DNA of 64,000 bases from positions 100,277,248 through 100,341,247 of the forward strand of contig OX465281.1 of assembly GCA_949987705.1 (NCBI GenBank), in the 5' to 3' direction. Both the position numbers and the translations under genes were made by a program. The first letter of the stretch is position 1. The number at the start of each line of letters is the position of its first letter. Source of the stretch: Thereva unica. Lineage: Eukaryota > Arthropoda > Insecta > Diptera > Therevidae. This document shows, one piece after another, positions 36,011 through 63,156 of this stretch. The notes beneath the pieces were generated by a model. It was not told the origin of the DNA and made no database searches. It saw nothing but the letters and a program-made list of their open reading frames with translations.

Positions 36011-36011
36011 T

Positions 36012-37208
36012 TCACTGGTCCCCTTGTTCAGCTGCCTTTCCGGCCGGCTCTACCATTTCCTCCGGCTTGTCCTTCTGGAATCGCACGTAGGCAAGGTCCA
36101 GCCCGCAGTTGAGTTTCCCCCCTGCACGCCTGACCGCCTCCGCCTCCTCCTTCGGACACCATACGGTGAGAATGGTACCGCCGTTTTTCGCGTCACCATA
36201 TCTGCCTATGCGACTGACCCTCCACTTAGAAGTGTCCGTCACACAGGCATTTTGACGGCGTAATCTGGCTAGGATGGTTTCCTTGCTCTCCGGCGAACCG
36301 GGAACTCGGATGATCATCCTCCTCACATCCTTAAGGATGTGAAGGCGCTCCACTCTCAGATTGACTCCTTCCCATAGGTCAGTCATCTTTCCGACAGCTT
36401 CGTACAGCCAGGCCTTGGATTTTTGGTTCACGCACCTGAGTGCAATGACCCCGTCCTCCAAGTCTACCTCGGTAATACCGATGTCGCCAGCGTTGTCAGG
36501 CAGAGAGTCTAGTGCCTTGAGCAGGGCCGCTTTAAAAACGGTTACCTGCTTCGTGCTCAGACCCTCCTCCCTTCCATCGTCGGTCACACCCAAACGGAGG
36601 TCACAGCCTGCTATGCCTGCGTAGGTATTCTCCGCCACAGGCTCCGCACGCACGACCCCCGAGACAGAAGGGTTGACTCCTCCCTGTTTTGCAGGTTGAG
36701 GTTGTCCACCCTTCCTTTCCCTGGCCTTATCCTCCCCTTCGACAGTAGTACCCACGGCTGAGGTGCAGAGACTTTCACCTCTAAACCTCTTCGTGGGTCC
36801 CACCTCCTCCGGAGTGGACTCGGCGGATCCCCCAACAGAGGAAGTTGCCTTCTTCTGTTTCCTGCGCTCCCTCTTCCTCTTCTGCTTCAGCTGCTTTCGC
36901 AGCCTCACATCCGAGTCGGATTCCTGCGCTAACGTAGGCCCAGAGCCGGCTGACCTCTTGACACATTGCTGCATCGCATTGTCCACCTTCTCTGAGCATA
37001 CCTCCAGGTTCAGCTTCACTAGCTCGCTCGCCGCCGCTTCTACGCTTTCCTGCGTGACTGCGTTGACATGCGAGTCGTCCACTTCCCTGTTCCTCTTAAG
37101 CAATAGATGGCCTCCCCCAGAATCCATGAGGCCGACCTCCGTAGAGGGTGGATTTCCCTGGCTTGCAGGTTTACCACCTGGGGTACAAATTCCCATTGTT
37201 GTGTCCAT
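36012..37208 (-). CDS. LINE ORF1 protein (DUF4780-like)
   Basis: 398 codons, open throughout. The first 200 residues are polar and probably disordered, with a strongly basic stretch (KQLKQKRKRERRKQKK near residue 105-120) suited to RNA binding. From about residue 215 to 385 a folded alpha/beta domain resembles the DUF4780 region of LOA-type ORF1 proteins (VFKAALLKALDSLP, the MIIRVPGSPESKETILARLR stretch and the GTILTVWCPKEE stretch). No CCHC knuckles are visible. The stop codon is one base before the ORF2 ATG. Its likely role is packaging element RNA in the cytoplasm; that is inferred from LINE biology. Confidence 0.88.
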   Translation of the reverse strand: MDTTMGICTPGGKPASQGNPPSTEVGLMDSGGGHLLLKRNREVDDSHVNAVTQESVEAAASELVKLNLEVCSEKVDNAMQQCVKRSAGSGPTLAQESDSDVRLRKQLKQKRKRERRKQKKATSSVGGSAESTPEEVGPTKRFRGESLCTSAVGTTVEGEDKARERKGGQPQPAKQGGVNPSVSGVVRAEPVAENTYAGIAGCDLRLGVTDDGREEGLSTKQVTVFKAALLKALDSLPDNAGDIGITEVDLEDGVIALRCVNQKSKAWLYEAVGKMTDLWEGVNLRVERLHILKDVRRMIIRVPGSPESKETILARLRRQNACVTDTSKWRVSRIGRYGDAKNGGTILTVWCPKEEAEAVRRAGGKLNCGLDLAYVRFQKDKPEEMVEPAGKAAEQGDQ

Positions 37209-37260
37209 TGCTTTTAAGTATCTATCTTAGTCAGGGCGTCCTAACGGGACCACACAAGCC

Positions 37261-44600: not shown

Positions 44601-47600
44601 CAGTATCATTAGACAATGACACTATTGGGGAAGACCTTGGTTGACGTTTTGGTGGAGACGATCTTTCCGATGGAGTTGACCACGATTCGGATTCGTTTGA
44701 GCCTGAGGATACTGATTAGGTCCGCTGAGAAGTCGTTGGTGAAATACTTGGATCCGACACCTTCCCTTCTGCGGTGTACTGGGTTTCCTGTTGGAACGCT
44801 GGTGGCACCGCCTGAGATTGACTGATTTCAATCTGTTGTTCTCCTTTAGGTATAAATCCCTTGGCTCTTCTAATTTGATTTTGATGTCTCCTCAGGATAT
44901 TACTGTGGGTTTTAACATTGTAGATCTTCGAACCAATTTTTTTTATAAATATGTCCGAAGACCCCTTTAGGACCCTTGGAAAAGTTCTGTGTGAACACAG
45001 GCTCATTAACCTGAAATTTAGAACTAGTTTCAGTACTGCTAAAATGTTTGGAATTATTTGAGTTATTAGGTATAAGTAACGAAAGTTGGTTTCGAGGTTG
45101 TCGACCATGTAGAAGCTCGGAAGGTGACTTCAAACTTACTGGGTTAGGGGTGACTCGGTAAGAGAACAGATATCGTCTAAGTGCTGAATCCAGGTTACTA
45201 CCATCACTACAAATTTTCTTCAACGAAGTTTTAAATGATCTCACAAAGCGTTCAGCTTCACCGTTGGAGGCTGGATGAAATGGTGCTGTTGTAAGATGAC
45301 GTATTCCATTTGTTCTGCAAAATTGTTGAAATTCTTCGCTTGTAAATTGCGTACCATTGTCGCTAACGATAACTTCTGGTAGACCTTCGATGACAAAAAT
45401 ATTTTCCAAAGCACGAATCGTTGCACTTTAGGTCGTGGTTTGCATTTTTACTACGTACGGAAATCTAGAGTAGGCGTCCACGCATATAAAAAACATAGAT
45501 CCCATGAACGGTCCAGCAAAGTCAACGTGTACCCGATACCACGGCGTTGATGGTGGATTCCAACTGCTAAATTCTTGTCTAGGTTTGACACCATTTTCTT
45601 GACACGCTTGACAGTTCACACAAAAATTTTCAATTTGTTGATCTATCCCTGGCCACCAACAGTATCGTCTCGCTAGCTGCTTCATTCGTACAGATCCCCA
45701 GTGACCCTCGTGTAGCATTTCTAAGACTCGAGGTTGTAGCTGTGACGGAATTATAATTCGATTATAATCAGTTTTGAGTATAAGACAATTTCTGTGTATT
45801 GAGATTGCAAGTCTTCGAACAAAATATTTTTCCAAATTTCCAGCATTAGGCAATAAAGTGTTATTATTTGGCCATCCTTGTTTTACGAATTCGGCTACCA
45901 TTCTCATAACTTTATCTTGCTTAGTAAATTTGGCAATTTTTTCTGAACTAATAGGTAATGAAGAAATGGCGTCGTCCAATTCTAAATCCACTTCTAGGCA
46001 AACATTTTCGGATGAATCAAAGTCTGGATCTGGACCTTGCGGTAGTCGAGATAAGCCATCCGCGTTACCATGAGATGCGGTCGGTTTATACTTAATAATG
46101 TATTCATACGCCATTAAAACTATCGCCCATCTCTGCAACCTTTGGGCGGTCATGACCGGTAGTGCTCGGTGTGGATGAAAAAGGCTGATAAGTGGTTTAT
46201 GATCCGTGATGAGTTCAAACTTGCGTCCATATAAATACTGGTGAAATTTTTTAACTCCAAATATAATAGATAAGGCTTCTTTTTCAATTTGGCTGTAGTT
46301 GAGTTGTGATTCATTTAGTGTTTTAGAGGCATGTGCAATAGGACGTTCTGTATTATCTGGATACCTATGAAGCAAAACAGCACCAACTCCAAATGAAGAT
46401 GCATCAGTTGCTAATATTATTGGGTATTCTTCTCGGAAGTGAACTAATTCAGTAGCTTTAATTATTTCTGCCTTGAGAGATTGAAAAGAATTTTCGCATT
46501 CCTTGGACCAAATTTGTTTTACGCCTTTCTTTCGAAGATAATTCAGTGGTTTGGACAGATCTGAAAAATTCTTTATAAACTTGCCATAATAATTAACTTT
46601 ACCTAGAAATGCCTGTACTTCCTTCAAGTTCCTTGGTCGTGGCATTTTTTCAATAGCTTGTATACCAGATTTAGTTGGTCTGATTCCACTGGAGGATATG
46701 ACATGACCTAGATATTCCATAGAAACCTGGAAGAATTTACTTTTGTTTAGATTACATCTTAAGTTACATTGACTTAATCGATTGAAAAGTTTTTCTAAAT
46801 TTGCAATATGTTCTTCTGTGGTAGATCCGGTCACTATTATGTCATCTAGATAAACGGCTACATTCGGAATACCTGAAATTACTTGTTCCATAAAACGTTG
46901 GAAAATCGCTGGGGCTGATGATACTCCAAAAGGGAGTCTTTGATACTCGTACAATCCAAATGGTGTATTAATAGTCATTAATTGTTTTGACTGCGAATCT
47001 AACTCAATTTGTAAGTAGGGATCAGCTAAATCCAATTTTGAGAAGTAGTATCCACCCTTTAGCTTGTTAAAGAGTTCTTCCACTCGGGGTAAGGGATAAC
47101 GGTCCGCCTCAATTTGGGAATTCACTGTCACCTTATAATCACCACATATTCTTATTCCTCCATTTGGCTTTTTTACGATGACGATTGGGGCAGCTCATTG
47201 GCTAAAAGACACTGGCTTTAATATTTTTTCCTTTACTAGTCGTTCAATTTCACTTTTCACAGAATCCATTTGCGCGAAAGGAACAGGTCGCGGTTTGAAA
47301 AACTTCGGTTGTGCACCTGTTTTTAAATGTAATTTAGCTTGGATTAACGAACATCTACCAAGATTTCCATCGAAAATATCTTTAAACACTTCGCACAATT
47401 TGGTTAACTTTTCTTGGGCTGCTGTTGTTGGCGAGCATTGGTGGGGGTTTTCACATAAATTATTCACTGCATGGTTCTCAATCTTAAAATTCAATTTCCT
47501 AAACCAATCGATTCCCATTATATTACTACCCGATTTTACATTGGTCACCAGTAAGGGTAAGCGGTACTCTTGTGATGACCATTTGACATCCACATGTAGC

Positions 47601-47765
47601 TGTCCTAAAATTGGAACTGAGCGATTTCTATATATCCATTTAATTGCTTGCGTGTTTGTTGACATTTCGGTTGTCCTAATTTTTCATAACCTGTTAATCC
47701 TATTAAGGAACAGGTGGCGCCCGTGTCGACTTGAAACTCTAAAAATAAACTATTTATTGTACAGC
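44600..47765 (-). mobile_element. Ty3/gypsy retrotransposon remnant, pol only
   Basis: Minus-strand protease, RT, RNase H and integrase are present, but gag and LTRs are not recognised on either side. Several inactivating changes show it is old. Confidence 0.85.
44640..47765 (-). pseudogene. pol: Ty3/gypsy pol (K02A2.6-like)
   Basis: From the 5' end (47765): protease with FQVDTGATCSLIG; a frameshift near 47650; the IMGIDWFRKLNFKIE block; an in-frame TGA at 47195 where SQWAAPI is expected (Trp to stop); RT with LPFGVSSAPAIFQ and YLDD near 46850; RNase H with LATDASSFGVGAVL, SQIEKEALSI and LITDHKPL; integrase zinc motif (HEGHWGSVRMKQLARR, CVNCQAC) and core (VDFAGPF, then a TAA at 45428-45430, then VSDNGTQFTSEEF and NGEAERFV). 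A homopolymer frameshift near 44940 precedes GSKIYNVKTHSNILRRHQNQ, the integrase tail. The style matches K02A2.6/Mag-type elements (recognition, not a search). A Ser/Pro-rich tail runs to about 44640. Confidence 0.9.
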
Positions 47766-48790
47766 GACGGTAGTCGCTGAGCACGACCAGAGCTCAGCGA
47801 CTCCCTTACCATACATTAAAATGAAAATTTCCAAATTTAATTTGCCTATTATTAATTACTGGGGCAACTAAACGGGATTCCCAATTAACACTAAGCTAAT
47901 TTGGGGTCGCTTTTTCGATTGCGACTAACAGCGAGTCTCAATTATTTACCGTTTTCGAGATCTAACGATTGGATTTCGAAAATTTCCAAAACGATTATCA
48001 AAAAGTTGTATTACGGGGAAGACAAAAATTTAAAAACCACGTCCACGCCTACTGCTACTTTAGAAATCGTTTTCGTTCTTCCTTCTCTTGCGCTTTTAGA
48101 ATGGCGGGTGAGAGAGGGGAGGTGTGTGTGGAGGATAGCGATTAGGCCCACAGACACAGCGGAAATTCTCTGGTGGGGAAGCTGTGACGTCAACCAATTT
48201 GTAAAATTTTTGGTGTACAAAAACGTAAAGAATCGGAAAACGTGCAAGTTCGTACGAAAGCACTATAATACGTTTTGTAAAGAAACAGACCTACTAATTA
48301 GTAGGCAATTGCTTGCGATAGAAAGAAGGAAAGGTGCTTGTTTCTTATTATTGTGACATTTCATGTGCGTAATATTTATAATCATCATATAAACAGTAAA
48401 AAGGATTTTATAATTTATTATTTTCTCATATAAACAGTGAAAAGGGTTATAATTGATTATTTGTGTGTGTTTTTTGTGTGTGTTTATTATAATGCTAACT
48501 TATAAAGAAAAGAAACTTGTATAGTGTTTAATTCTGTTTGAAAAGAAGTGTTTTACATTGAATCTGGGTGGTGGTTAGTGATTGGTGGTATTGCTGATCC
48601 GTGTTGTTAATAAAAATAAGAAATCTGCAAGAAGTGAGTAAGTTTATCTTTCATTAAATTAAAGAAGATATTTCAGGGCCTCTCGTTCACATTGAAAACG
48701 ATTGCTTTTTCGATAGGTCTTTGACGGCTTCGTTTGACGGCTAAGTTTAATAGCAAATCGGTTTAATTGCTACTTTTTATAAATATTATA
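47766..48790. other. Region upstream of the protease-Helitron gene
   Basis: No recognised protein. A 151-codon plus-strand frame (47901-48356) has no family resemblance and a composition like spacer DNA. A direct repeat, TCATATAAACAGT(A/G)AAAAGG, occurs at about 48386 and 48426. TTATAAATATTATA lies 5-20 bp before the ATG at 48795. It may hold the promoter of the gene that follows. Confidence 0.4.
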
Positions 48791-49089
48791 GAAAATGGAT
48801 CAGTTTCTGGAAAATATAATACTTCGAGGGGAAACTCTAGCGAATGATCATATTCGGCAATTTGAAACTGTTCTCAAAAACTCCGGTATACATAGTGATA
48901 TTGAGTACATATATCTTGACGAAAAGCAATTACAATTCCCCACAGCATACTTAGATTATCAGTGTTTACCAACAAAAAAATACATGATAATTCTGTACTC
49001 AATGGAAGGTTCGGAAACTTATAATAAAATTCTAAACAGAAGTAACATAGGCCATTTTGTTTGTGTTCTTTTTGACACAAACAATATTT

Positions 49090-50335
49090 GGGTGTTTCTC
49101 TGTAACCTGGTAAATTTTTGCAGGAAATCTGTCCCAGTAACTTTTTTAAGTGAATATGAAAAAAAAATATACAATTAAATAGATATCTATCTGGTGGATA
49201 ATAAACAGTAAGGGACCCAAATATATTTGTTTTATTTTAGGACTTATTGAGTAAATTTAAAAAATTCATATGTCAGAGGACTGTTGCATATGTCAGAGGA
49301 TTGTATATATAAGTGAAATGAGCATTTATTAGTAGTATATATACTTTAAAAACATTCCTCATGACGCATATATATAAAAATAAAACAGTCTTCTTTGGTA
49401 GTTCCAAGTTCTCTGTGTGGTTCCAAGTAAACTTGTGAACTTTTATTTCTTCCTTAGACACTTTCTTCTTTCTCGCGCCATGATTAAAAGATGGTTATAG
49501 ACCTAAAACAAAGGCAAAAGTACAATAATAGTCCCCTAATAAATGAAACAGTCTCCTGTTTCTGTATGTAGCGGGGGACTGTTGACCGGGGACTGTTGGC
49601 AGGGGACTGTTTAATTTGTGTAATTGTTACGGTACCATAAAATTCCTTCATTATGACTTTATTTTGTTTTATAGAAACAATATAAGCCATCTTATTTAAA
49701 ACGATGCACAATAGAGAAAACTGGTACACTTTAAAAAAAGAAAAATAACACTTACTAGGGGACTGTCGAATGTTGCGTACCGATGCGCGCATGTGCCTCT
49801 CTAACTCTTGTAACACTAAACAAAATGAGGTATAGCTACTTTTGGGGGTAACAAAGCTAACTTCATGTCGTTCACGTTTCGTTACGCCCATTAACAAGTC
49901 TGTCTTTACTGTAGATGGCCTGATGCGTCACTCGAAACCTTGGGCAGGGGACTGTTCATGAAATTCGGGGACCAGCTTTAGGTTAAATTAAACTAATCAT
50001 AAAATAGTTTAAATAAATTGATATTAGAGTCTAATAGCATATCATTTCATATTGATTAAATTGTGTTATATAAGTTTATTGTTTTTAAAATATTAGTTCA
50101 ATTATTGAACTCAATAGAAAATATTTTGGTTTGGTGACCGGCCAGGGGACTGTTTTTAGACCTAAAAAATACGTTATTTAAACCATATAGGTTTTTAAGT
50201 GAGATATTTTCTATATTGTATACTATAGTTTAGATAGTTATAAATTGAAATTTGCAGAAATATAAATATTTCTCGCCATAGTTTACGTAATATTTGCCAA
50301 GGACAGCGATTTTACCACTTTGGTGAGAAACACCC
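49090..50335. mobile_element. 1.25-kb transposon with GGGGACTGT array
   Basis: The ends are GGGTGTTTCTC and its complement, extended by a second match (TGGTAAA about 18 bp in). The flanking ATTT (49086-49089, 50336-50339) is a candidate 4-bp target duplication. Removing the element joins DTNN to ICIYDS in frame. The interior has six exact GGGGACTGT words plus variants. A 137-codon minus-strand frame (49484-49897) overlaps the motifs and resembles nothing known. Superfamily uncertain; a 4-bp duplication would fit Sola-like elements among others. Confidence 0.82.
49274..50153 (+). repeat. Interspersed GGGGACTGT motif array
   Basis: Exact copies at about 49574, 49588, 49602, 49758, 49947 and 50145, often preceded by CA or GCA. 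Variants are AGAGGACTGT (49274), inverted ACAGTCTCC (49549) and inverted AGTCCCC (49530). All lie inside the 49090-50335 element. Confidence 0.85.
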
Positions 50336-50520
50336 ATTTGTATCTATGACTCGGCAAGTGTAAAAAATTATTCCAACCAACTCAACCAGATTTTGCAAAT
50401 TTTATTTCCATTTTGTTATTCCGAGAAGGGAAATAGAGTGATTTACTCGCACGTTCAATGTCAAAAAAACGGGGTTGATTGCGGAATTTTCGGTATCGCC
50501 TTTGCCATTTCATTATTCTA

Positions 50521-50920
50521 AAGGCCCTTGGAGACGCTAAAACATGGTACGAGTAAACATGGTACAGGGACCATGTTCGAGGTGATGTTAGCCGTGTACG
50601 GGCCGGTACGCGTACCAGTTTTTTGGTCCGACCAACGGTCCGACTAAAATCAAAACTTGTTTGATTTCCGTCGATGTTCGTGGGCGGAGTTTCGTGTTGA
50701 TGATACCATGTCCTACCATTTGCGGACTTGTTTGACCAAATTTACTCGTATACGAAATGTTTCAATTTACCAGTTGACAACTGAATGACAGATTAACTTG
50801 AAATATTTTGACAAGAGAGCGGTGTTTAAGTAAATCGGTCTTAGCACATGTCTTACCGTCTGCGGGTTTTTGGTCGTACCATGTTTACTCGTACCATGTT
50901 TTAGCGTCTCCAAGGGCCTT
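50521..50920. mobile_element. 400-bp MITE with 45-bp perfect inverted repeats
   Basis: Starts AAGGCCCTTGGAGACGCTAA and ends with its exact complement; the match runs 45 bp on each side. TA (50519-50520, 50921-50922) flanks it, so a TA or TWA target duplication is possible. It interrupts protease domain 1 just after DCGIFGIAFAISLF. Confidence 0.9.
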
Positions 50921-53060
50921 TAGGGTTTCGCCCAGAAATAATTGAATACACTGTGGAGGCGATGCGACCACACCTAGTGAATATTTTCAGAGAAAAATCT
51001 ATCACCCATTTTCCATTCCGAGTTTTGACCGAGCATGAATACATCGATCGCCGGACAACTAATTATATTATTCAGCCGGTCGATGAGCCTTTTGAATGGC
51101 AGAGCTACGTTGTCTTTTACGAAAATAATAAACGTGCGATGGAAAACTGGAAAAGAATGTGTGTAAGCAATCGTAAAAAGGCATATTATCATTCACATAA
51201 AGCTGAAATACGTCAGAAAAGAAAGAAAAATCGAGAGCAGAAAAAGATGAAATCACAACAGTCAGTGTCTTCATTGAACGATGCTACAAAGAACGGCGAT
51301 GCAATAATTGACTCGAATATGCAAGATTTAAAATCGTTTTTCGACGATTCTAATGGAAAAACTCGAGAAGAAGGTACCTTGAAGAATGTTGGGGGTTGTA
51401 GCACTTATATCCTTGGTGCGGATTATGTTAACGCGGCATTAATTCCTCAGGAAATTATGGACGAAACTATAAGTCACTGTGACGGTTATCTTCTTTGCGG
51501 AAGCAATAAACCCGGAATGCATGACAAAAAAGCAATGCAGTTGTACAAACGGCAAAAATCTTATTATCATGCTCATATAGATGAAATAAGTCAGAGAAGA
51601 AAGAAAAACCGAAAGAAGAGAAAACTGTGTTTGACGCAGGATCACAGGATATCACAGCAGTCAATCTATAAATTGAAGGATATCGAAAATAAAGGCGATG
51701 GAAAAATTAATTCAATTTTAGAAGAGAAAGAAAAAGAATTAAATGAAAAATGTCCGCTTATAAATACCGGAAACCATTGTAGCAATTGTATGCTTTGTGA
51801 TCATGCTGAATTTGCCTCAATGCCCATTTCTCCGACGGATATAGGTTCTGTCCATTTTTTCCAAAATTTCCTGCAACAACATTTTGGAAATTTCAAATTT
51901 AGTTATTGTTCAGAGCTTCAGTTAGAATATCCATCATATATCGATAATCCCTGGCCGGAGGACCGGAAAAATATTCAAATCGTATATGGACAATTCTTCG
52001 TTGCAGGGCAAATTAATCCAACTTCTCATTTCGCTTGTTCTTATTATGATAAGACATCAATAAAGGTTTTTAAATGCTCTCACTGTGAAATCAAATTTCG
52101 AAATTGTTTGCCTATTTTAAAGAAATTGTACCCATATTACTTTGCAGCAAGTAAAGCCGTTCAATATGTTCCTTTGGCATCAGAGACTTGTACTTGTAAA
52201 TCTAGTATTTTAAGTTTTTCTGTCGCAATTTCATTGATGCTCGATTTGAGGCCTGACCGGATTCAATACTCATCACACGAAGTTAAGTCGCTGTTATCCT
52301 CTTTCTTTGACGATAGATTGATTCATCACTTTTTACTTGTAAATAATCAATTGACCGAAATCTATTCTTTTAGAGACCCGAAAAGCAATCAGCAGTGCAG
52401 ACAAAAAATTCTTGTAGATGAATGGCTAGATGATTATCATATGTTATATGTCAATCGTTTAATTGAGCATTACTCATATTTCACAACCACTGATACGATT
52501 TTAAATCAAAATTTCACCCGAATATCACCCGTTTCTAAGGATGCCAAGCACGTCCAAATACTAATTGCTGGTAGTCACTGGACTTGCAGTTATTATGATA
52601 CCAAAGTAATCTATATTTATGATTCTTTGAACATAAGGAGTCTCTGTGAAATTAACGAGGCAGTTCTATTGCAACTGCATCCACAATATTTTGAAACTGA
52701 TGCATCAAAGATATTTTTTCCGACAGTTCATATGCAACCAAACGGTAGGGATTGTGGTCTTTATGCGATAGCTTTTTTAATTTCAATATTACTCGGATAT
52801 GATCCAGCTCGGGTGCGGTTTGATGAAACTCTTTTGCGAAGCCATTTTCTAAGAATATTTGATACCGGTGTTCTGGAAATGTTTCCGTTATCTTCAATCG
52901 ATCTTACTACCAATCCGTCAGATGTATATGACAAAGTTTACGCAATAAAGGGAAAAAACTACGACCATTTGCTACCTCAACTCTCGAAGCGGCCACTTTC
53001 CAGTGATATTGTTGATTTAACTGAAACATGTGTTGAGAATAAAAAAACTAAAACAAATGA

Positions 53061-54174
53061 ATGGAAAGCGCGACCAAGCAAAGACAACCGAAAAATGAAA
53101 GAAAATATGAGGCTCACTTATTGGAACCCAGCAGCGTGCCGATCAAGAAGAAAGATGTTGTAGGCTCATGGTTCAATGATGAATGGGTGGTTAGTCATAA
53201 AGAAAAATTGGTACGGAACTTGCAGACTGTAATCACATCACGTAATTCGCCAAATGACACATCAATCAGAATCGAAGCTGAAAAAATAGTTGACCGGTGT
53301 ATTCTTACAATCAAAGAAAAGAATGATAAACTTTATGCAACTTTCAAAAATTGTAAGGCGAAGGCTCGGGCACATTTGACTCGGGTTGAAGCAGTTTCAA
53401 AAGATGCCGCAGAGAGTTTCAGAGACGCCCTTTGTGGACCATCTGGCCATACTGTGTTTACAGAGCCGTTTTTTACTGATGCTGCATATAAACACCTTAA
53501 ACTAATGACAATTGTTGAAGATCATGCGAGCTTGAAAGCGGTGTCGGATCCATTGGAAAAGAACTGCGAAAACGTCGTTACTCCCGCGATCGAATTGAAT
53601 GAATGTATTTGGCAGTAAGAAAAAGTCATGGGAATGTAATGATTTATGTAAAACTGATGACCCATACAAATTAAGCGAACTGCACGATCTTTTTACCACT
53701 GTCGCGGCATGTAAGTTCAAGAATTTGTTAAATTTCTTTCAAGAATTGAAGTGCTCGGTAAATGCTCAAATCAATAAACTTGGTCACTCGCAGGGGTGCT
53801 ATATAAAGCCGTCGACTTGCGCGTCAAAGTTTTTGTCACTTTTGATTCTGTCGTGTCATTTCCCACAATTGCGACTAATTAAAAATTTAATTTATAACAC
53901 GCAGAAACTCCATGAACGAATTGAATCAATTGATAAGACATTGTTTCGTGCAGATTTGATCGAAATGAAAAATCGGAGGAAAATAGTGCTTTACATCGGA
54001 GTAAACGTAGTTCTTATGATATTGATGAGAATAAATTGAGGAAAAAATATTTAAATTTCTTCGAATTCTTTACTGAAAGATCGACCGACTTGCCATTATA
54101 TGCATGTTGCTCGTGTAATAAAATCAAGACAAAACGAGAAGTTCAAAGGGTTTCGAAAGCTCTTACAAAAAATT
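53061..54174 (+). pseudogene. Helitron protein, N-terminal linker and zinc region
   Basis: Overlaps the end of the protease frame in another phase, so either a new start (ATG 53061, directly after an in-frame TGA) or a frameshift near 53150. It reads VVGSWFNDEWVVSHKEKLVRNL and helical sequence to 53618, shifts near 53600 (KKSWECNDLCKTDDPYKL) and again near 54000, where it becomes FTERSTDLPLYACCSCNKIK, the first cysteine pair of the Helitron N-terminal zinc region. It is then interrupted by the LINE. The second cysteine pair follows at 57.7 kb. Confidence 0.75.
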
Positions 54175-54198
54175 GAAGAAAATAAATTATGGAAAGAT

Positions 54199-54225
54199 AT
54201 TTATTTATTTATTTATTTATTTATT
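54199..54225. repeat. (TTTA)n tail of LINE
   Basis: Six to seven TTTA units at the LINE 3' end (AAAT on the element strand). Confidence 0.93.
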
Positions 54226-54548
54226 AATGAAAGAAAAAAGTACACAAGATTTACATCTTATTTAGTACTGTAACACCGGAAAATATTATAAAAATTATTA
54301 AAATTAGAATTAATGACAAAATTAAAATTAAACTTAAAATTAAAATTCAAATTAGTTTTCAAATTGAAGAAATAAATAACAGAAAAAGAAAATGAAAATG
54401 AAAATAGAATAGAATAGAATACAATAAACTAGAATAGAAATTAATTTAATTCAATTTAGTTATTAACTAATTCTTAGCCGGTAAAATGAATCCGAAGCCG
54501 AGAAGATGAAAGCTGATGATGAGCAGCAAGCAAGCGATAAATACAATT

Positions 54549-56543
54549 TTATGCGTTCCGTGTTCCAAGGTATGCGATCACTCTGCTCCTGAAAGCGCCG
54601 AGGGAGCTGATACTTTGCAGATGGAATGGGAGGCTATTCCACAGTCTAACAGTATGTACAAAGAAGGAACAACTACCCAACAGGGAACAGTGTCTAGGAA
54701 TACGAAATTGCATAGAACGACGAGTACGAAGAGGAACAAGACTATCAGTAAGATATGAGGGGGCAGAGGAATTAACGATTTTATGCAATAAGCATAGGCC
54801 ATGAACGTCACGATATGTAAGGAGGTTACAAGGTAGCAAGGATGGACGAAGACCAGAAACATGTGCAAATCGATTAAGGCCAAAAATGAACCTTAAACAA
54901 TCATTGAAGGCAACATTCAATCTATGTTTACATGTGGAGTCAAGGCATATATAAACAGTGGAACCATATAGAAAATGAGGAAGTATAAGGGATTTTACTA
55001 GCGCAAGACGAGTATCACGGGATAATAAGCTACCATAGAGACGTAGGCGACGTAAACAAGTATAGATTTTTTTCAAAGTAAGCGACACATGATCACAACA
55101 GGACAAAGTAGAGTTAACCAATACTCCAAGATTCTTGGAAGACGAGACCATTTTCAGCGGAACATTGTTAAGCTTTAACGGGGGGATGCTGGATGTATCA
55201 AGAAGACGTCTGCTAAGGATTAGTACAGATGATTTTTTAGGATTTAACTTCAAGAAGTTATTTTCACACCATAGGGACAAGGATATCAGATCGTTATTTA
55301 AGGCCTCAATAAGGCGATGGATATCTTTAGGAGTACAGAAATTATATAATTGGAGGTCATCCGCATAGCTATGGTGACGAGCAAAGGATAGACAATTAGG
55401 TAAATCATTAACATATAGACAGAACAACAGTGGCCCAAGAACAGAGCCTTGAGGAACACCTGAGAGTACAGGGATAAAGGAGGAAATTTTTTTGTTATAT
55501 TTTACGCATTGGTACCTATTAAATAGGAAAGAGGCAAGGAGGTGAGTCGCAGAGGACGAGAGGCCAAAATTGGAGGACAATTTATTAAGAAGAACGCTAT
55601 GGCAAACCGTGTTGAAAGCACGTGAGAGATCTAGAAGAATCAATACACCCAACTCATTTCTATCACATGCCATTCGTAAGTCCGTCAAGACCTTTAGCAG
55701 CGCAGTTTCACAACTATGGAACTTCCTGAACCCAGATTGCAACGGATTCAATAGATTTTCATGGGTAAGATAGGATTGCAACTGGACAGATAAGATTTTC
55801 TCAAGTGCTTTGGACAGAAATGGTAAAATGCTAATCGGGCGTAAATCCCCCACATCAACAGGACAAGGGACTTTAGGAATAGGAGTAATAACAGCCTTTT
55901 TCCATAACGATGGAAATGTAGATTGCAATATACATGAATTAAATATATGTGTTAAAACCGGTAAAATTAGAGGAGCAATGATTTTAACGAAATAAGAAGG
56001 GATATTATCGATTCCAGTTGCATTGGATTTAATGGACATAATGGCACAGTGTGTTTCGCGTTCATCTACACACCTGAAGCTAAACCCATCCACGGACAGA
56101 GAGGATAAATGAACTGGCGGTAGGTTATCCGGAAGAGGCTCCACAAATGAACGGTTTAGAACACAGGGATCGAGGTCTACTTCTGCACTATCTCTACCAC
56201 AAACACCCAACGATCGTAAGTTCTTCCACAGCAACTTAGAAGGGAGAGAAGTGTTTAATTTTTGTTCAAAGAACTGTCTTTTGGCACTTCTAATCTTGTG
56301 ATTAACAAGATTGCGGACTCTAGTATACTGCTGTCGACTTTCTGTTGTCTTCAGACGGCGGTATCGTTGATACAAATATTCCCTTTCAGAAATCAGACGT
56401 TTAATTTCAATGGTAAACCATGAACTTGAATCGGGATTACGTTTAGTGCGCCTGGATTTGAGAGGGACAGTTTCTTGCAGTACTGTAGTTAAAACAAAAT
56501 TACTATAGCGCAAACAAGAAAACATTTTCATTAAAAACGCCAT
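54549..56543 (-). CDS. LINE ORF2: reverse transcriptase without endonuclease
   Basis: 664 codons, open. Residues about 25-110 are the basic linker that normally follows the endonuclease (SSWFTIEIKRLISEREYLYQ). RT blocks: SNATGIDNIPSYFVK, LRPISILPFLSKALEKIL, SGFRKFHSCETALLK, LDLSRAFNTV (motif A, with Asn in place of the usual Asp), GVPQGSVLGPLLFCLY and YADD at about residue 392. The C-terminal part includes RLWNSLPFHLQS. The EEP endonuclease is absent: only 25 bp separate ORF1 and this frame. The first Met probably lies inside the truncated linker. Without the endonuclease the product could not nick a target by itself. Confidence 0.92.
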   Translation of the reverse strand: MAFLMKMFSCLRYSNFVLTTVLQETVPLKSRRTKRNPDSSSWFTIEIKRLISEREYLYQRYRRLKTTESRQQYTRVRNLVNHKIRSAKRQFFEQKLNTSLPSKLLWKNLRSLGVCGRDSAEVDLDPCVLNRSFVEPLPDNLPPVHLSSLSVDGFSFRCVDERETHCAIMSIKSNATGIDNIPSYFVKIIAPLILPVLTHIFNSCILQSTFPSLWKKAVITPIPKVPCPVDVGDLRPISILPFLSKALEKILSVQLQSYLTHENLLNPLQSGFRKFHSCETALLKVLTDLRMACDRNELGVLILLDLSRAFNTVCHSVLLNKLSSNFGLSSSATHLLASFLFNRYQCVKYNKKISSFIPVLSGVPQGSVLGPLLFCLYVNDLPNCLSFARHHSYADDLQLYNFCTPKDIHRLIEALNNDLISLSLWCENNFLKLNPKKSSVLILSRRLLDTSSIPPLKLNNVPLKMVSSSKNLGVLVNSTLSCCDHVSLTLKKIYTCLRRLRLYGSLLSRDTRLALVKSLILPHFLYGSTVYICLDSTCKHRLNVAFNDCLRFIFGLNRFAHVSGLRPSLLPCNLLTYRDVHGLCLLHKIVNSSAPSYLTDSLVPLRTRRSMQFRIPRHCSLLGSCSFFVHTVRLWNSLPFHLQSISSLGAFRSRVIAYLGTRNA

Positions 56544-56567
56544 ATATACACACTGACCAGTGAATGC

Positions 56568-57479
56568 TTACTGAGCACCATTAGCATTTGTCGATTCGTA
56601 TTCGGCAATTTCCTGCAGCAAGTCCAAGCTAGGAACTACAACTGGTCGATCATCTGCTATTCTGCGTACATACACCAACCCATTACGAGTAAAAGAGGAA
56701 TGAATCAGTTTCTCTCTTTTGAGACGCAGGACTCTCCTTAATATATCGTTATTTTTGTCCGAGAGACTTTCATATGCACCAATTCTACCATCAGATGCGT
56801 AGCTGCTGGATAATTTATTTAGAGTGAGCGCTCCGAACTTCCAATAGCGGGATAGAAATGACTTCTGCTCATTAGCACAAGAAAATTTCACTATAAGCGG
56901 GGGATTCCGTCGTCGGGTGCTGTTATTAGGGGTATCCGTATTGCGTTTGACTCGGAATGCATGTGTGAAATTTGAAATTGGATGCCCAATGGTTGTAGCA
57001 ATAGCAGAGAGCAATTGACTGGCACTCTCACCATCGGTATATGGAATGCCAGTAATGACTGCATCGCTTAGCCTACTCACACGCTGACAATCATCAATTA
57101 AATTGATCATGGAGTCATAATTGGCTTTAATTGTGTTCAGCTCATCAGTCAATGCCGTGATTTGAGTGCTGAAACCATTAATGACATCAGCAATTTTCTT
57201 GGAGATCGATTCTTCTAGGGTAGCCATTTTCGCCTCCAATTTTTCCTCCAAAATCTGATTAAACTTGAGCAGTAACCTCCTCTCAAACGATTCCATAAGA
57301 TCAGCAGAAATCGCCGAACCAGATCCGCAATCCTTAGAGTGGATAGGGGAATCGATAGTATTCCCGACGTTATTCCTGATCTGACTACGCGTCTTAGTCA
57401 TGCTGATGACTGCTGGAGGTGTATTAGTTTTAGTTGCATGAACCGCAACCGCCGTTTTAATTTTGTCGTTTTTAGACAT
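56568..57479 (-). CDS. LINE ORF1: coiled coil and RRM-like domain
   Basis: 303 codons. Residues about 60-135 are a heptad-rich coiled coil (ESFERRLLLKFNQILEEKL, MATLEESISKKIADVI, ITALTDELNTIKANYDSM). Residues about 135-225 (DAVITGIPYTDGES, PPLIVKFSCANEQKSFLSR) look like the RRM-like fold of L1-type ORF1 proteins, followed by a C-terminal region (SDKNNDILRRVLRLKREKL, LVYVRRIADDRPVVV). Such proteins trimerise and bind element RNA. No zinc knuckles. The frame is open although ORF2 lacks its endonuclease. Confidence 0.88.
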   Translation of the reverse strand: MSKNDKIKTAVAVHATKTNTPPAVISMTKTRSQIRNNVGNTIDSPIHSKDCGSGSAISADLMESFERRLLLKFNQILEEKLEAKMATLEESISKKIADVINGFSTQITALTDELNTIKANYDSMINLIDDCQRVSRLSDAVITGIPYTDGESASQLLSAIATTIGHPISNFTHAFRVKRNTDTPNNSTRRRNPPLIVKFSCANEQKSFLSRYWKFGALTLNKLSSSYASDGRIGAYESLSDKNNDILRRVLRLKREKLIHSSFTRNGLVYVRRIADDRPVVVPSLDLLQEIAEYESTNANGAQ

Positions 57480-57689
57480 ATTTATAATACTGCGATTCGG
57501 AAAGGAAAAAAGACGAGAAAAATTTCACTGGGCAATGAGACGATGCCGCACACAAAATTGGAAAAATATTTGGTAAAAACTGGCAAAAACTAGCAAATGC
57601 CACGGAGCTCAAGCAACACGATTATTCACACTTGACACATCAACACACACCCAAAAATCACACACACATCAACACATTGCCCAAAAATT

Positions 57690-59450
57690 ACCAGATCAGG
57701 AGCTTCAATACATTTGCAGCTATTGTTACTTACAGATAAAAGGGGATAAACTACCTGCTTCTTGTTTCTTAAACAATCTGGAATTTGTCAATGTTCCACC
57801 AGAAATCCTTTGCTTAAATGATAATGAAAAAATGTTGATTCAGCGTGCAAAATGTTTTCAAACTGTTCAAAAAATGGGCACTGTATCGAAAAAGAATATA
57901 CCGAACAAAGCGGCATATGAAAAAGTGGTCGGTAGAGTTGTGCATTTACCACTGACAATAGAAGAAACTTTAAAAAAAATTTGCAAAGAATCCGACCCAA
58001 TTAATTTGCATCATGAAATGCACGTGCTTGTTCGGTCATTGCCAAATAAAAATAATGTAGTTTGGGAGAGTATCGTCAACATGGATAGAGTGTTTAATGC
58101 GCTAAAGTGGTTGAAAAGTAACAATCGCTTATATTCAGCAATAGATCTTCCCGATTCGGCAGCAAATTTGAAAAAATTGTTAGAAAAAGCTCCCCCTGTT
58201 GAATACGAAGACATTGCTGAAGAAGAGAAAGAAAAAATGATGCTCTAATTCCAGGTGATACATCGAAACCTACAAAAGATAAAAAAATGAAGGTCATTGA
58301 TATCCATGATAAAAATCGTAAGGCAATGTTGACCCAAGTTTCACAATCAAATTCTTTTTATGAGAATGTTTCTATATATCCACTTCAAGAACAGCGAGTA
58401 AATGTCTCGGATACAAACTTATATCAACAAGTTAAAATTCATGAAAAGCCTTTGGATAGAAACGTGAAGGAGATAGATACGATGTGTTTTCCCGACGTTT
58501 TTCCACAAGGAAAAGGCGGTCAACATCATCCGCGGAAGAAACGTTTACGGGACTGCGATTTCATCAAAGTCGTGTTGATGCACAACCGTGCCCAATTCCG
58601 GAGAAATAAACAATATCTCTTCCACTTGTTAAACGATTGTACTATGCGACAGTTGAATGGGGGAATTTTCCAAGCATTAAATGTCGTTAATCCAAAGGCC
58701 AAGTTATCCAAAAAAGAAATTCCTCCAGAAATTGAAAGAGTATTCATTAGAAGCAGATCTCAGTAGTATAACCAATCGTCTTAAAAATAGTAAGCAATAC
58801 TGGAACAAAGTAATGTGTGATCTCACTGCACAAAATATTTCACCATGGACCAGCTACTTTCTTTATGACTGTCAGCCCGAGTGAATGGATGAATACACAA
58901 TTGATTCAATACATAAGGGATACAAGTGAAGATATTGATACTTCTAAAATGTCACCGGATGAGTTAATTTCACTCGACCCGGTATCTGTGGCGCGATTCA
59001 TGGATATCCAATTCCGTGCTCTTCTTGATGCGTTGTATGAGAAAAATGGCCCGCTCGGTAAAATCAAGTATCATTTTTGGCGACGTGAATATCAACAGAG
59101 GGGTATGATGCACTTTCATTTATTACTGTGGGTCGAGGATGCTCCGGTACTTGGTAAATCTCCAGATTCCGAGGTAGCGGAATTTATTCAAAAATACATC
59201 ACTTGTGCGTTACCCGATAAAAATATTTCTCCACTCCTACATGCGCGGGTCACAAGAAATTAAGTTCATCATCACAATGATTATTGCACAAGAACTAAAA
59301 AAGTAGGCAAAGGTATCAAACGGATTTGTCGATTCGGATTTTCTCGCCCACAAAAAGAAAACTTTGAACTGAGCACTGTTCAAAAATCAGTAAGCGGAAG
59401 ACGAAATTTAAAATCACACGAAAGATTATATCACTTACCGCGGGATTCTA
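57690..59450 (+). pseudogene. Helitron Rep (HUH) domain, N-terminal and core part
   Basis: Begins with YICSYCYLQIKGDKLPA, the second cysteine pair, then FVNVPPEILCLNDNEKMLI and GRVVHLPLTIEETL, classic Helitron N-terminal blocks. A frameshift near 58250 leads to CFPDVFPQGKGGQHHPRKK, another near 58730 to YWNKVMCDLTAQNISPWT and another near 58850 to SVARFMDIQFRALLDAL and YQQRGMMHFHLLLWVED, in which His-x-His is the HUH metal site. A stop after HARVTRN (59261-59263) is followed, still in phase, by the Cys-containing GKGIKRICRFGFSRP. Rep nicks and joins single-stranded DNA in rolling-circle transposition. Decayed. Confidence 0.9.
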
Positions 59451-59455
59451 AGAAA

Positions 59456-60790
59456 ATGAATATCAATGATTCTGCGGTGCTTTTATGTTGGAATGGAAAT
59501 ATGGATATTCAATACATTGGTGATTCGTCCACAGCTTTAACCATATACTTGACAAAATACGTTTTAAAATCCGAAAAAACGGGCAAGGATGAAAATTTAA
59601 TGGATAATATACAAATGAATGGTAATCTCTATAGTGTCTTATGGAGTCTGGCTATGCGAATGTTGACCCACAGAGAGTGCGGAGTATTCGAAGCGGCAGA
59701 TTCCTGTCTAGGCTTTTCTTTATACGGGTTTGACAGACACACTGTAGTTAAATGGTTGAACGTATTTATGATTAGGAATAAGAGATTAAAAACTAAGAAA
59801 GAATTGGCACCCCTAGACGATGATGACACTGATATTTTTTTTGCGCATTTCATCGATACATACTATGCTAATCGTCCTGCAGAATTGGAGTCGCTAAATC
59901 TGTACGATTTTGCTACCGATTATGAGGTGCAAAATAACGAACCGAAAAATGAAAATACCATATATTATCATCTCGACGATGGAAAATACTTGAAAATTAG
60001 GAAGAAGTCTCAACTCGTTAATCATTACAAATTCAAACAGGATTCCCAACCCGAGCAATACTTCTATGCGCTGTTACTTTTGTTCAAACCCTGGCGTGAT
60101 ACGGACGAGTTGAAAGCTGACTTTAAAACATATGCAGAGGCCTTTCTCGCTATGAAAGATGATTTAAAAGATGCATTGAAATATCATGAAAAACTGCATG
60201 GCAGAGAACTTGATCTGGAGAACATGAAAAAACTGATCAAAGAAGAAAATCTGAAGCAATATGACGAGGGTAAAAATTGTCATGATCCTGTCAATGATAT
60301 TGATGAAGTTTTGAATTCCGTTCGTGATGACACTGAAATGGCCATGAAGGATTTCAAAGACGCGGTTGACTTGATTGTGAAAGATAACTATGACTGGATA
60401 CAAGCGCTTGCGTCTGCTAATACCGATCAAGTTAGAGTCTACAATACCCTTATGAATGATGTCGCCAGTACTGATAAAGTATGTCGAATTCATGTGACAG
60501 GAGAAGCTGGCACCGGCAAAAGTTTTTTAATTGAACTCATTTCTCATGCCATAAAAGATCTCCACAAAAAAACGTAGCGATTATGGCGCCCACTGGCTTA
60601 GCTGCAGCTAGCATCAAAGGTTTAACCATCCATCGCTTACTTCGCTTGCCCATTGAACAGGGGCGTACGCCAGCATATACCCCATTGAGCGATACTGAAT
60701 TGAAATTTATAAGGAGTCAGTTGAAAAACGTGGCCGTTATTATAATTAACGAAGTGTCTATGGTTTCTAATCTCATATTGCTTTATATTC
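59456..60790 (+). pseudogene. Helitron Rep tyrosine motif and PIF1-like helicase, truncated
   Basis: An open 373-codon frame starts at MNINDSAVLL and contains the two catalytic tyrosines in LTIYLTKYVLKSEK (YxxKY, near 59555), a long helical linker and the helicase Walker A motif HVTGEAGTGKSFL (near 60495). A frameshift near 60577 moves the frame to MAPTGLAAASIKGLTIHRLL (motif Ia). The Walker B-like IIINEVSMVSN (near 60745) has Asn in place of the usual Asp. The protein similarity ends near 60790 and the rest of the helicase is missing. Known Helitrons fuse Rep with this 5'-3' helicase. Confidence 0.9.
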
Positions 60791-61389
60791 ATTTTACTAT
60801 ATACATTTTATTTCCCATAAATCATATAATAACCTTCAATCGAAATTATCGCTTTGCTTCGTATAATTTTCAGAATTGTAATCCGATTATAACTTCTACC
60901 GTTAATATAATAACAAAATGTTCATTTAATTTCCCATCATGCTCAGCGTAATCGGAACTCAAAATTCGCGATAGCAAAAGTCTTTTCTAAGAAGCCCGTT
61001 AATGTGCAAAATGCACTTACTATATGTAATGGAAACCATCTTTTATTCCAAACTTTTTCAATGTAATTAGAAACCAAAAATTGCGATAACAAAAGTCGGT
61101 TCTAAGAAACCCGTTGATGTGCAAGATGCATCTCTGTCGCAGCGGAAATTGTCCTTCTATTTCAAATATTTTTAATGTAACGGGACGCCGCGAAAAATAG
61201 ATAAAGGAATTTCATAGAAGTCCTTTGAAGAATGCAATCTTGCATTTTGTTCTCTAGCTCCTTGTCAGTATCTAGGGAAGATTCATGAAGCTAAAAATTA
61301 AAAAGGCGAGTAGTATTTTTCCAGTCAGAGCGCGCGGTTATATTCGGGAAGTCAAACCAGTTTTTTTATAAAGCAGAGTTTTTTAGCAA
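60791..61389. repeat. AT-rich region with a 115-bp diverged duplication
   Basis: Two related blocks, about 60945-61060 and 61061-61175, share GCGATA(G/A)CAAAAGTC, TTCTAAGAA(G/A)CCCGTT and ATGTGCAA(A/G)ATGCA at a 115-bp offset. A third, weaker unit may follow. No coding sequence. No Helitron 3' hairpin with CTRR is identified. Confidence 0.6.
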
Positions 61390-61797
61390 TTGAAAGTTTT
61401 TGGATTTTAAAATAAATTGTAGAAACATATTACATTAAAAGTGAAAGTTTTTGGATTTTAAAATAAATTGTAGAAACATTTTACATTAATAGTGAAAGTT
61501 TTTGGATTTTAAAATAATTTGTAGAAACAAATTACATTAATAGTGAAAGTTTTTGGATTTTAAAATAAATTGTAGAAACATATTACATTAATTGTGAAAG
61601 TTTTTGGATTTTAAAATAAATTGTAGAAACATATTACATTAATAGTGAAAGTTTTTGGATTTTAAAATAAATTGTAGAAACATATTACATTAATAGTGAA
61701 AGTTTTTGGATTTTAAAATAAATTGTAGAAACATATTACTTTAGCAGTTGAAAGTTTTTGGATTTTAAAATAAATCGTAGAAACATATTACTTTGCT
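61390..61797. repeat. 51-bp minisatellite, eight units
   Basis: Units start at 61390, 61441, 61492, 61543, 61594, 61645, 61696 and 61747, each reading GTGAAAGTTTTTGGATTTTA followed by a conserved AAATAAATTGTAGAAACAT block, with few substitutions. The last unit touches the broken end of the gypsy fragment. Confidence 0.96.
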
Positions 61798-63156
61798 ACC
61801 AGGCCCTACTATCGAAAGAGCACGGTAGTGGCCCACAACACCCTCTTGTGAAATAATGTCCCAACAATTTTACCTTCCTAACTTTGTATTGTATTTTTTC
61901 CTTATTGAACTTTATGTTCAATTGCCTTGCCCTTTCTGCTACTTTCTGTAGAATTTCATCATGTTTAGTTTTATCTTCTGCCGTTATTAAAATATCGTCT
62001 ATGTATATTAATACACCTTTTATGTCCGCGAAATTTCTTTCATTAAATTTTTGAAAAATTTCTGGCGCTATTTTGATACCGAATGGTAGTCTCTTATATT
62101 TGTATAATCCATAGGGTGTACTAAAAGTGCAAATATTAGTTGAGCCTTCGTCTAACTCAATCTGGAAATATCCGTCTTTTAGATCTAATACTGTAAAAAA
62201 TGTTTTATTTGAGAGTTTTGCTGTAAGTTCTTGAAATAAGGGAATGGGGTGGTTAATTGGTTTGAGCGCATCATTTAGGGCTTTAGGTTCTAGACAAATA
62301 CGATTTTTTTCCCCGGTTTTTCTACTATTACTATGTCGGAAATCCATTCGGCTGAACCATCCACTTTTTCTATTATACCATTACCTTGAAGACGTTCAAG
62401 CTCTGCCTTGACACTACTTCGGATAGCCAGTGGGATTCTTCTGGCGGGTTTGGCAACAGGGACTGCATCTTTTTTAAGACTTATGTGAAAATTTATTGCA
62501 AATGTCCTTAGCCCTTCAAAAAGGTCCTCGTTTTCTTTTACAAAATATTTGTGGTCTTGATTTTGTGTTATTTTGTATTGACCCTTTTTACCAAGTTTAA
62601 TTCGACACATACACTTAGTCCTAGAATAGGCGTTGTGCCATTTTTAATTACATAATCTCTTAGTTTTTATTTTGATTCATAATTATACATTTTAACGTGA
62701 TTTTTCCAACAGTTTCTAACATCGTCCCATCATACCCATAAATCTTTGCTTCTGTTTTACTTATTTGTCTAATTCCTAATTTTTTTAGTAGATCATAAGG
62801 AAGTGCGTTTACATCCGATCCTGTATCTAATTTTAATTTAACTATTTTATCTCGTATTTTAACGTTTTCTGTCCATGTTTTTCTTTTTTGCAATTTCTGC
62901 TGCCCTTGAAATTACGACTGCCTTATCCAAATTTAGATTTTCCATCTCCAGTAATTTCTTTTGTAATGATCTATCATTTGTTCCCAGTAAGTACTATTTT
63001 GTCCCTTAACATGCGGTTTTCTTGGTCACCAAATTCGCAGTTCCTTACCAGCTTGATATGCATGAGAAAGTTATCAAACGGTTCATCTGTTTCTTGTTTT
63101 CTATTGTAGAATATGTAACTCTCGTACATTTCATTTCTTTTCAATTTTCTACGCAT
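61798..63156 (-). mobile_element. Ty3/gypsy fragment (gag end, protease, RT)
   Basis: Minus-strand order gag end, protease, RT. It is cut inside RT at about 61840 next to the minisatellite. RNase H, integrase and LTRs are missing. Confidence 0.87.
61798..63156 (-). pseudogene. pol: gypsy gag-protease-RT remnant
   Basis: The gag end (63156-62974) has DEPFDNFLMHIKLVRNCEFG, shifting near 62985 to DRSLQKKLLEMENLNLDKA. Protease has LKLDTGSDVNALPYDLLKKL (near 62820-62790). A shift near 62660 leads to a TPILGLSVCVELNL block, and a further shift near 62600 to the RT N-terminus (PARRIPLAIRSSVKAELERL). After a last shift near 62310 come RT blocks LDLKDGYFQIEL, LPFGIKIAPEIFQ and catalytic YIDD (near 61995). 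Similarity ends after KVKLLGHYFT. At least four lesions make it inactive. A Mag/K02A2.6-type element is likely from the gag and RT style. Confidence 0.87.

Follow-up and report, generated by a model that had tools for sequence, protein, structure and literature searches.

The locus studied here raises the question of whether cysteine protease domains of the C48 type that lie upstream of a Helitron belong to that transposon and, if so, what they might do for it. Helitrons are rolling-circle transposons. The stretch analysed, hereafter the window, comprises 64,000 nucleotides from the fly Thereva unica (GenBank assembly GCA_949987705.1, contig OX465281.1, positions 100,277,248 to 100,341,247 of the forward strand), and an earlier note on its sequence had described a Helitron whose Rep-helicase region is preceded by three C48 protease domains. 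We found that a single decayed Helitron occupies the plus strand between about 48.8 and 60.8 kb. With a probability of roughly 0.6, we regard it as the remnant of a kind of Helitron that carries C48 domains, a zinc region, Rep, a PIF1 helicase and a ubiquitin-specific protease (USP) in one protein, in which the C48 and USP enzymes would strip tags in cis and thereby aid transposition. What the computation itself shows is that the architecture is shared, that catalytic residues are conserved, that the third C48 domain has an Ulp1/SENP-like fold and that this copy has decayed.

The C48 domains lie within one decayed Helitron

Two proteins from outside the window, P0001 and P0014 in our search numbering, gave a colinear run of tblastn matches across 48.8-60.8 kb, and the use of such outside queries placed the C48 identification above chance. 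The matches of P0014 covered the C48 pieces, a middle region (53614-53958 and 53949-54155), the zinc region (57709-58230) and Rep (58248-59794), while those of P0001 reached further, to the start of the helicase at 60828 (P0001 residue 2182). All the C48, zinc, HUH, YxxKY and Walker A motifs quoted by the earlier note were recovered on the plus strand. Its three C48 blocks (GSHWTCSYYD, YIYDSLN and MQPNGRDCG) are indeed present, but all of them come from one domain, number 3. Likewise, the count of three protease domains holds for domains 1 and 3, which are complete, but not for domain 2, which is a remnant, and the relatives carry one or two.

The C48 open reading frame (ORF) of the window is carried by an open frame of 752 aa on the plus strand. 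Two insertions have to be bridged before domain 1 is complete; its three pieces jointly span profile positions 16-177 (Table 1). The first piece (match given as 48792-49175) was detected only by the profile, which was built from the P0001, P0004 and P0014 domains and window domain 3, without window domains 1 and 2. The middle piece holds the catalytic Asp in IYDS (~50342-50353) and the Gln and Cys in QKNGVDCG, with the Cys codon at ~50480-50482 as counted by hand. Domain 2 retains the His (HFAC, 52027-52038) but has neither the catalytic Asp nor the Cys, and its structure model is poor (AlphaFold pLDDT 60.5). Since it sits within the open 752-aa frame, it may have decayed before this copy as a whole died. 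Domain 3 shows the His in HWTC (52576-52587), the Asp in IYDS (52615-52626), and the Gln (52735) and Cys in QPNGRDCG (52735-52758). The catalytic order His-Asp-Gln-Cys is thus found in domain 3 and, with the flanks joined, in domain 1, and not in domain 2. A Pfam scan of the whole 752-aa ORF gave no match at E 1; when stretches were cut out, domain 3 alone was named (PF02902), at 20.3 bits (E 5.5e-4) on a longer cut and 21.0 bits on a tighter one against a cut-off of 20.7 bits.

Downstream, the Helitron-specific part bears the expected landmarks. Rep contains the HUH motif (HFH, 59111-59119) and the two-tyrosine YxxKY motif as YLTKY (59546-59560), which shares the open frame 59264-60574 with the Walker A sequence GEAGTGKS (60500-60523), so that PIF1 and Rep are fused in the window, where the helicase is truncated, as they are within one protein in P0001, P0004 and P0061. 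The homology to relatives detected by tblastn stops near 60.8 kb, and the window copy lacks the remainder of the helicase together with any C-terminal domain; the USP was not found by tblastn in this truncated copy, and the 3' end of the Helitron is lost near the same point. Self-blastn of 47700-48800 found no second copy in the window by which the 5' end could be placed. The copy is dead, because it has several frameshifts, an in-frame stop in Rep, INEVSM (60745-60762) instead of IDEVSM, the consensus of three relatives, and no homology beyond ~60.8 kb. As the frame is broken at several places and a long interspersed nuclear element (LINE) has entered the zinc region, C48 and Rep are not joined by an intact ORF in this copy.

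Table 1 Features of the Helitron copy, its insertions and the fused relatives (window positions in nucleotides; relatives in residues).
Feature	Position	Strand	Evidence or content
C48 domain 1, first part	48792-49089	+	catalytic His in HFVC 49053-49064; profile positions 16-90, E 2.9e-5 among six-frame pieces
DNA-transposon-like insertion in C48 domain 1, 1246 bp	49090-50335		11-bp terminal inverted repeat GGGTGTTTCTC; 4-bp target duplication ATTT
C48 domain 1, middle part	50336-50518	+	tblastn P0014 E 1.3e-9, P0001 E 9e-7; profile positions 85-145
Miniature inverted-repeat transposable element (MITE) in C48 domain 1, ~400 bp	50519-50922		45-48 bp perfect terminal inverted repeats; possible TA target duplication
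C48 domain 1, last part (LGFRPEIIEYTVEAMRPHLVNIFREKSITHFP)	50920-51015	+	profile positions 146-177; tblastn E 2e-4 (P0001), 0.002 (P0014)
Linker, basic repeat in two copies (YYHSHKAEIRQKRKKNREQKK, YYHAHIDEISQRRKKNRKKRK)	51016-51807	+	read from translation
C48 domain 2, degenerate	51808-52335	+	tblastn P0001 E 9e-10, P0014 E 1.6e-6
C48 domain 3, complete	52348-52890	+	tblastn E 2e-35 (P0001), 5e-31 (P0014); PF02902; structure model
N-terminal middle region and first zinc cysteines (CCSC 54105-54116)	53097-54173	+	tblastn of P0001 824-1122, P0014 781-971; frameshifted
LINE-type retrotransposon without long terminal repeats (non-LTR) in zinc region	54190-57571, borders approximate	-	PF00078 E 9e-29
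Helitron zinc region, second half (PF20209, DUF6570)	57694-58245	+	Pfam E 3.1e-13; tblastn; CSYC 57715-57726
Rep domain, Helitron_like_N	58248-59860	+	PF14214 E 9.1e-15; tblastn; frameshifts, in-frame stop 59261-59263
PIF1-type helicase, start	60419-60828	+	PF05970 E 1.2e-4 and 1.9e-6 on two pieces; tblastn of P0001
P0001			C48 14-201, C48 330-495, zinc, HUH, PIF1, USP 2567-2829
P0061			C48 9-191 and 294-473, zinc, HUH, PIF1, USP 2530-2799 (phmmer; USP not in Pfam listing at E 0.5)
P0004			one C48, zinc, Rep, helicase, USP
P0014			two C48, zinc, Rep; ends before helicase

Four relatives join C48 and Rep in one protein

A protein search with the Rep part of a stitched query returned 60 proteins at E 0.01, and a second search from four aligned relatives returned five at E 1e-5, four of them new, giving 64 in total, among which P0063 is not a Helitron protein. 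When the C48 ORF was used alone, none of the 7994 scored candidates matched at E 0.001 or better; its lysine-rich linkers may have filled the candidate list. Four relatives, P0001 (2836 aa), P0061 (2802 aa), P0004 (2339 aa) and P0014 (1756 aa), hold C48, the zinc region and Rep in one protein, the very kind of intact ORF that the earlier note had proposed to look for. Their source sequences (8910, 9984, 7779 and 7457 bases, respectively) leave room for few or no introns. The USP was recognised by PF00443 in P0001 and P0004 and by phmmer in P0061. With a crude pattern, both the Cys and the His box were matched in five of the 17 USP-bearing proteins (P0001, P0004, P0005, P0007 and P0061), and the Cys box of P0002 is visible in its sequence though the pattern missed it. 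The AP (apurinic/apyrimidinic) endonuclease of Helentrons (PF03372 or PF14529) was not listed in P0001, P0004 or P0061, and the window copy ends before that point.

It is hardly credible that two unrelated elements, a C48 gene and a Helitron, came to lie side by side by chance. In this copy the parts are separated by frameshifts and the LINE, and a similar C48 occurs in the non-Helitron P0063; against this, both parts stand in one protein in the four relatives, and the stretch between C48 and the LINE (53097-54173), which is contiguous with the C48 ORF and upstream of the LINE, is already Helitron sequence including the first zinc cysteines. For these two reasons we take C48 and the Helitron to be one element, as the earlier note had supposed.

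Whole-protein Pfam scans listed C48 in P0014 (E 1.6e-8) and did not list it in P0001 (to E 0.01) or in P0004 and P0061 (to E 0.5), although PF02902 matched eight of ten cut-out C48 domains at E 1 or better. That whole-protein scans miss most of them may be why these N-terminal domains have gone unannotated. Named proteins of the same Rep clade come from Linepithema humile (P0005, P0015), Cardiocondyla obscurior (P0007), Parnassius mnemosyne (P0006) and Cotesia typhae (P0013), and because they are insect proteins an insect origin is likely for the four fused relatives as well. Among viral contigs, 33 pattern matches included no relative, and a protein search of phage records gave none either.

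P0063 (980 aa) carries a C48 of the same type at residues 224-386 (E 2e-21). The region after it resembles what we take to be a Penelope-type reverse transcriptase, although a Pfam scan named neither this region nor the C48. Mobile elements of different kinds may have this C48 family in common.

Fold and catalytic residues of the C48 domains

The model of domain 3, made with seven sequences, reached a pLDDT of 85.6 and a pTM of 0.86 and has the Ulp1/SENP fold, matching Ulp1, SENP1, SENP2, SENP5 and NEDP1. The C48 profile matched SENP1 in the PDB at 2e-6, and fold and profile matches together named Ulp1 and SENP1/2/3/5/8. Weaker fold matches included the proteases of African swine fever virus (ASFV) and a poxvirus and adenain-like viral proteins. 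The closest match in the viral library BFVD was Q6R2R7 (410 aa; 36% identity over 175 columns, TM score 0.85), which is roughly as near to domain 3 as the Helitron relatives are; one possibility is that its source is a virus carrying insect transposon DNA.

ASFV, poxvirus and adenain-like proteases process viral proteins, and their presence among the weaker matches, together with the occurrence of several proteases within one very long protein, would fit a polyprotein in which the C48 domains cut the 2800-residue product and free the proteases, Rep-helicase and USP in the manner of viral CE-clan proteases. Adenain cuts at (M/I/L)xGx-G or (M/I/L)xGG-x. Such sites are absent anywhere in the four relatives, and none of their eight Gly-Gly pairs falls in a linker, all being inside domains. 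This count, which covers Gly-Gly and adenain-type sites, depends on hand-set domain borders, and eight pairs is close to the 8.6 expected from composition. The closest folds, moreover, are those of proteases acting on NEDD8 or on the small ubiquitin-like modifier (SUMO). Polyprotein processing, which the earlier note had offered as one role, is therefore disfavoured and appears unlikely; isopeptidase action in cis is the preferred reading of these sequences.

An alignment of ten C48 domains, one of them from the non-Helitron P0063, kept the His, Gln and Cys in ten of ten and the Asp in nine of ten. The loss of Asp and Cys from window domain 2 inside an open frame, and the lack of the Asp in P0001 domain 1, indicate that inactive copies are tolerated, as would be expected if the C48 domains served mainly as ubiquitin- or SUMO-binding or structural modules that take Rep to modified chromatin, with catalysis dispensable. 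Yet no protein in the alignment is without a domain that keeps all four of His, Asp, Gln and Cys, so that we hold such a purely binding role to be somewhat less probable still than polyprotein processing.

Distribution of C48 and other tag-removing domains among Helitrons

The Rep tree contained 51 rows, made up of the window plus 50 of the 64 proteins; the other 14 were dropped since their HUH match was absent or shorter than ~150 residues. The branches of P0053 and P0056 are very long, and that of the window is itself long (1.03). The window falls in a clade of 12 rows (support 97/90) with four subgroups, and an N-terminal C48 occurs in each of them; support is weaker (88/80) for placing the window with P0004 and P0005. 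All five clade rows that reach far enough upstream have C48, namely the window, P0001, P0004, P0014 and P0061. The other seven are uninformative about its absence, because four begin at most 94 residues ahead of the middle-region match and the remaining three lack that match. Outside the clade, eight proteins (P0010, P0011, P0012, P0018, P0021, P0022, P0024 and P0025) with 109-868 residues upstream of the middle region have no N-terminal C48. Since such Helitrons exist outside it, the N-terminal C48 is a feature of the window's clade, not of Helitrons at large. Helitrons lacking an N-terminal C48 while a similar C48 occurs elsewhere, the pattern that would have separated the two, were accordingly seen only outside the clade, in these eight proteins and the non-Helitron P0063, and not within it.

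That Helitrons capture genes (PMC6431247) and that those outside the clade manage without C48 would both suit C48 gene fragments picked up as passengers with no role in the Helitron life cycle. However, C48 occurs in all four subgroups of the clade in one protein with Rep, and the catalytic residues are retained despite an identity of only 30-39% between the clade domains and window domain 3, which makes a mere passenger very improbable. A tree of 12 C48 domains gave no supported fork that would show whether the tandem duplication of C48 is shared.

Other lineages carry tag-removing enzymes of other families or at other positions. P0050 and P0051 have an N-terminal C48 in a distant clade that includes members with a herpes-tegument-type deubiquitinase (DUB). 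A C-terminal C48 was found in five Helitrons (P0019, P0020, P0022, P0023 and P0026), which with P0025 form a group (100/99) adjoining a 19-row group that holds most of the USP proteins. The OTU domain, whose position was checked in five of six proteins, lies at the C-terminus of P0021 and P0028, at the N-terminus of P0030 and P0040, and between zinc region and HUH in P0031; the tegument-type DUB, checked in five of nine proteins, is N-terminal in P0035, P0036, P0043, P0046 and P0062. Altogether, Pfam listings and our own searches assigned a C48, USP, OTU or tegument-type domain to 40 of the 63 Helitron-like proteins, a set picked by similarity to the window, so that the fraction is no estimate for Helitrons at large.

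Proposed role of the C48 and USP domains

In the preferred reading, the C48 domains would be isopeptidases that take off SUMO or a different ubiquitin-like tag, while ubiquitin would be removed by the USP. Held in cis to the Rep-helicase, these enzymes could strip tags off the transposase itself and so prevent its degradation or inhibition, or clear them from silencing factors that depend on SUMO and act at the element's own chromatin, or both. Tag removal would then favour transcription and rolling-circle transposition. That C48 counters host SUMOylation, as the earlier note had also suggested, is a reasonable but tentative inference. In Drosophila, the Piwi-pathway effector Panx needs SUMOylation to silence in a tethering assay (PMC13195609). 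Plant Vandal transposons with an Ulp1-bearing VANC-type gene escape silencing, according to a review (PMC13317346), in which the part played by Ulp1 is not established. For two zebrafish Helitrons, the tegument-type domains have been shown to cleave ubiquitin (PMC9741609).

In other Helitrons, unrelated enzyme families (C48, OTU and herpes-tegument-type DUB) stand at N- or C-terminal positions, as if the activity, and not one particular enzyme, were selected. A bolder and more tentative proposal, which we consider possible and clearly less probable than the preferred reading, is that the C48-USP protein of a clade of insect-type Helitrons is a dual tag-removing transposase, cancelling both SUMO-dependent silencing, for example through Piwi and Panx, and ubiquitin-dependent destruction, and that across Helitrons the N- and C-terminal positions have been filled repeatedly by unrelated C48, USP, OTU and tegument-type DUB domains. 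The pairing of a SUMO-type with a ubiquitin-type enzyme on one transposase, and the unrelated DUBs at the same ends in other lineages, suggest selection for the removal of ubiquitin-like tags, and make it directly testable whether transposons carry countermeasures against SUMO-dependent silencing.

Insertions that split the Helitron and other repeats in the window

Three insertions interrupt the copy (Table 1). The 1246-bp insertion in domain 1 is foreign to the Helitron: once its flanks are joined they read LFDTNNICIYDSASVK, which is open and in frame with the catalytic Asp. It holds several GGGGACTGT repeats inside and is an unclassified DNA-transposon-like element, probably non-autonomous. 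When the flanks of the MITE were joined with the TA duplication a frameshift remained; this element is perhaps young, because its inverted repeats are perfect. The LINE has a reverse transcriptase ORF (54549-56567) and an upstream ORF (56568-57524), and its candidate 13-bp target duplication TGGAAARATATTT is weak, 35 of 300 random stretches matching equally well.

The window is a transposon-rich stretch. At 32336-37226 on the minus strand lies a long non-LTR retrotransposon, with a 1238-aa ORF encoding endonuclease, reverse transcriptase and RNase H and an upstream DUF4780 ORF. A retrotransposon pol piece at 13085-16063 (+) has protease, reverse transcriptase, RNase H and integrase by Pfam, and two further pol pieces (45428-47683 and 61796-62643, both minus strand) were identified by eye only. 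A tandem array of 51-bp units occupies 61340-61820, its inner copies being 91-97% and its outer copies 70-76% like the reference copy.

Comparison with known systems

Published work already describes OTU and tegument-type DUBs in Helitrons, as well as Ulp1 in other DNA transposons. Among the matches listed from the Helitron literature searched, with subscription-only papers and Repbase outside the search, none reported C48 or USP in a Helitron. The words 'C48' and 'Ulp' do not occur in the main text of PMC9741609, in which we found no mention of a USP in Helitrons; 'Ulp' is likewise absent from the main text of PMC4067079, and the terms protease, ubiquitin, peptidase and OTU are absent from PMC6544945.

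The nearest known systems are the Helitrons and Helentrons with tegument-type (VTD) and OTU DUBs (PMC9741609), which also place ubiquitin-directed cysteine proteases inside the Rep-helicase ORF. One of them, DrT1, has two tegument-type domains in a single element, and three zebrafish domains were active. Unlike those elements, the window's clade has a CE-clan C48 at the N-terminus and a USP at the C-terminus, and the AP endonuclease is unlisted in P0001, P0004 and P0061. Helentrons with OTU-like proteases (PMC4067079) similarly carry an accessory cysteine protease in a rolling-circle transposon, but of another family; their authors propose chromatin signalling or Rep cleavage as its function.

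Ginger1 and Mutator-like transposons (PMC2836005) have Ulp1/C48 in the transposase, and OTU and Ulp1 alternate among Ginger1 elements; in contrast to the window Helitron they are cut-and-paste elements, and the Ulp1 of Ginger1 is C-terminal. The KIU genes of plant Vandal elements, which are Mutator-like elements without terminal inverted repeats, combine VANC and Ulp1 (PMC13317346) and also link an Ulp1 of a transposon protein to escape from silencing, but there the element is a DNA transposon other than a Helitron, and its Ulp1 belongs to a separate anti-silencing protein.

The Helitrons with a C-terminal C48 described above resemble the window's clade in that a single protein unites C48 with the zinc region, HUH Rep and PIF1; their C48, however, follows the helicase, at the place of the USP, and barely scores with the N-terminal C48 profile. 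With the cellular SUMO/NEDD8 proteases (Ulp1 and SENP1/2/3/5/7/8), finally, the window C48 shares the fold and the His-Asp-Gln-Cys order, but it is only ~12-20% identical to them and is part of a transposon protein.

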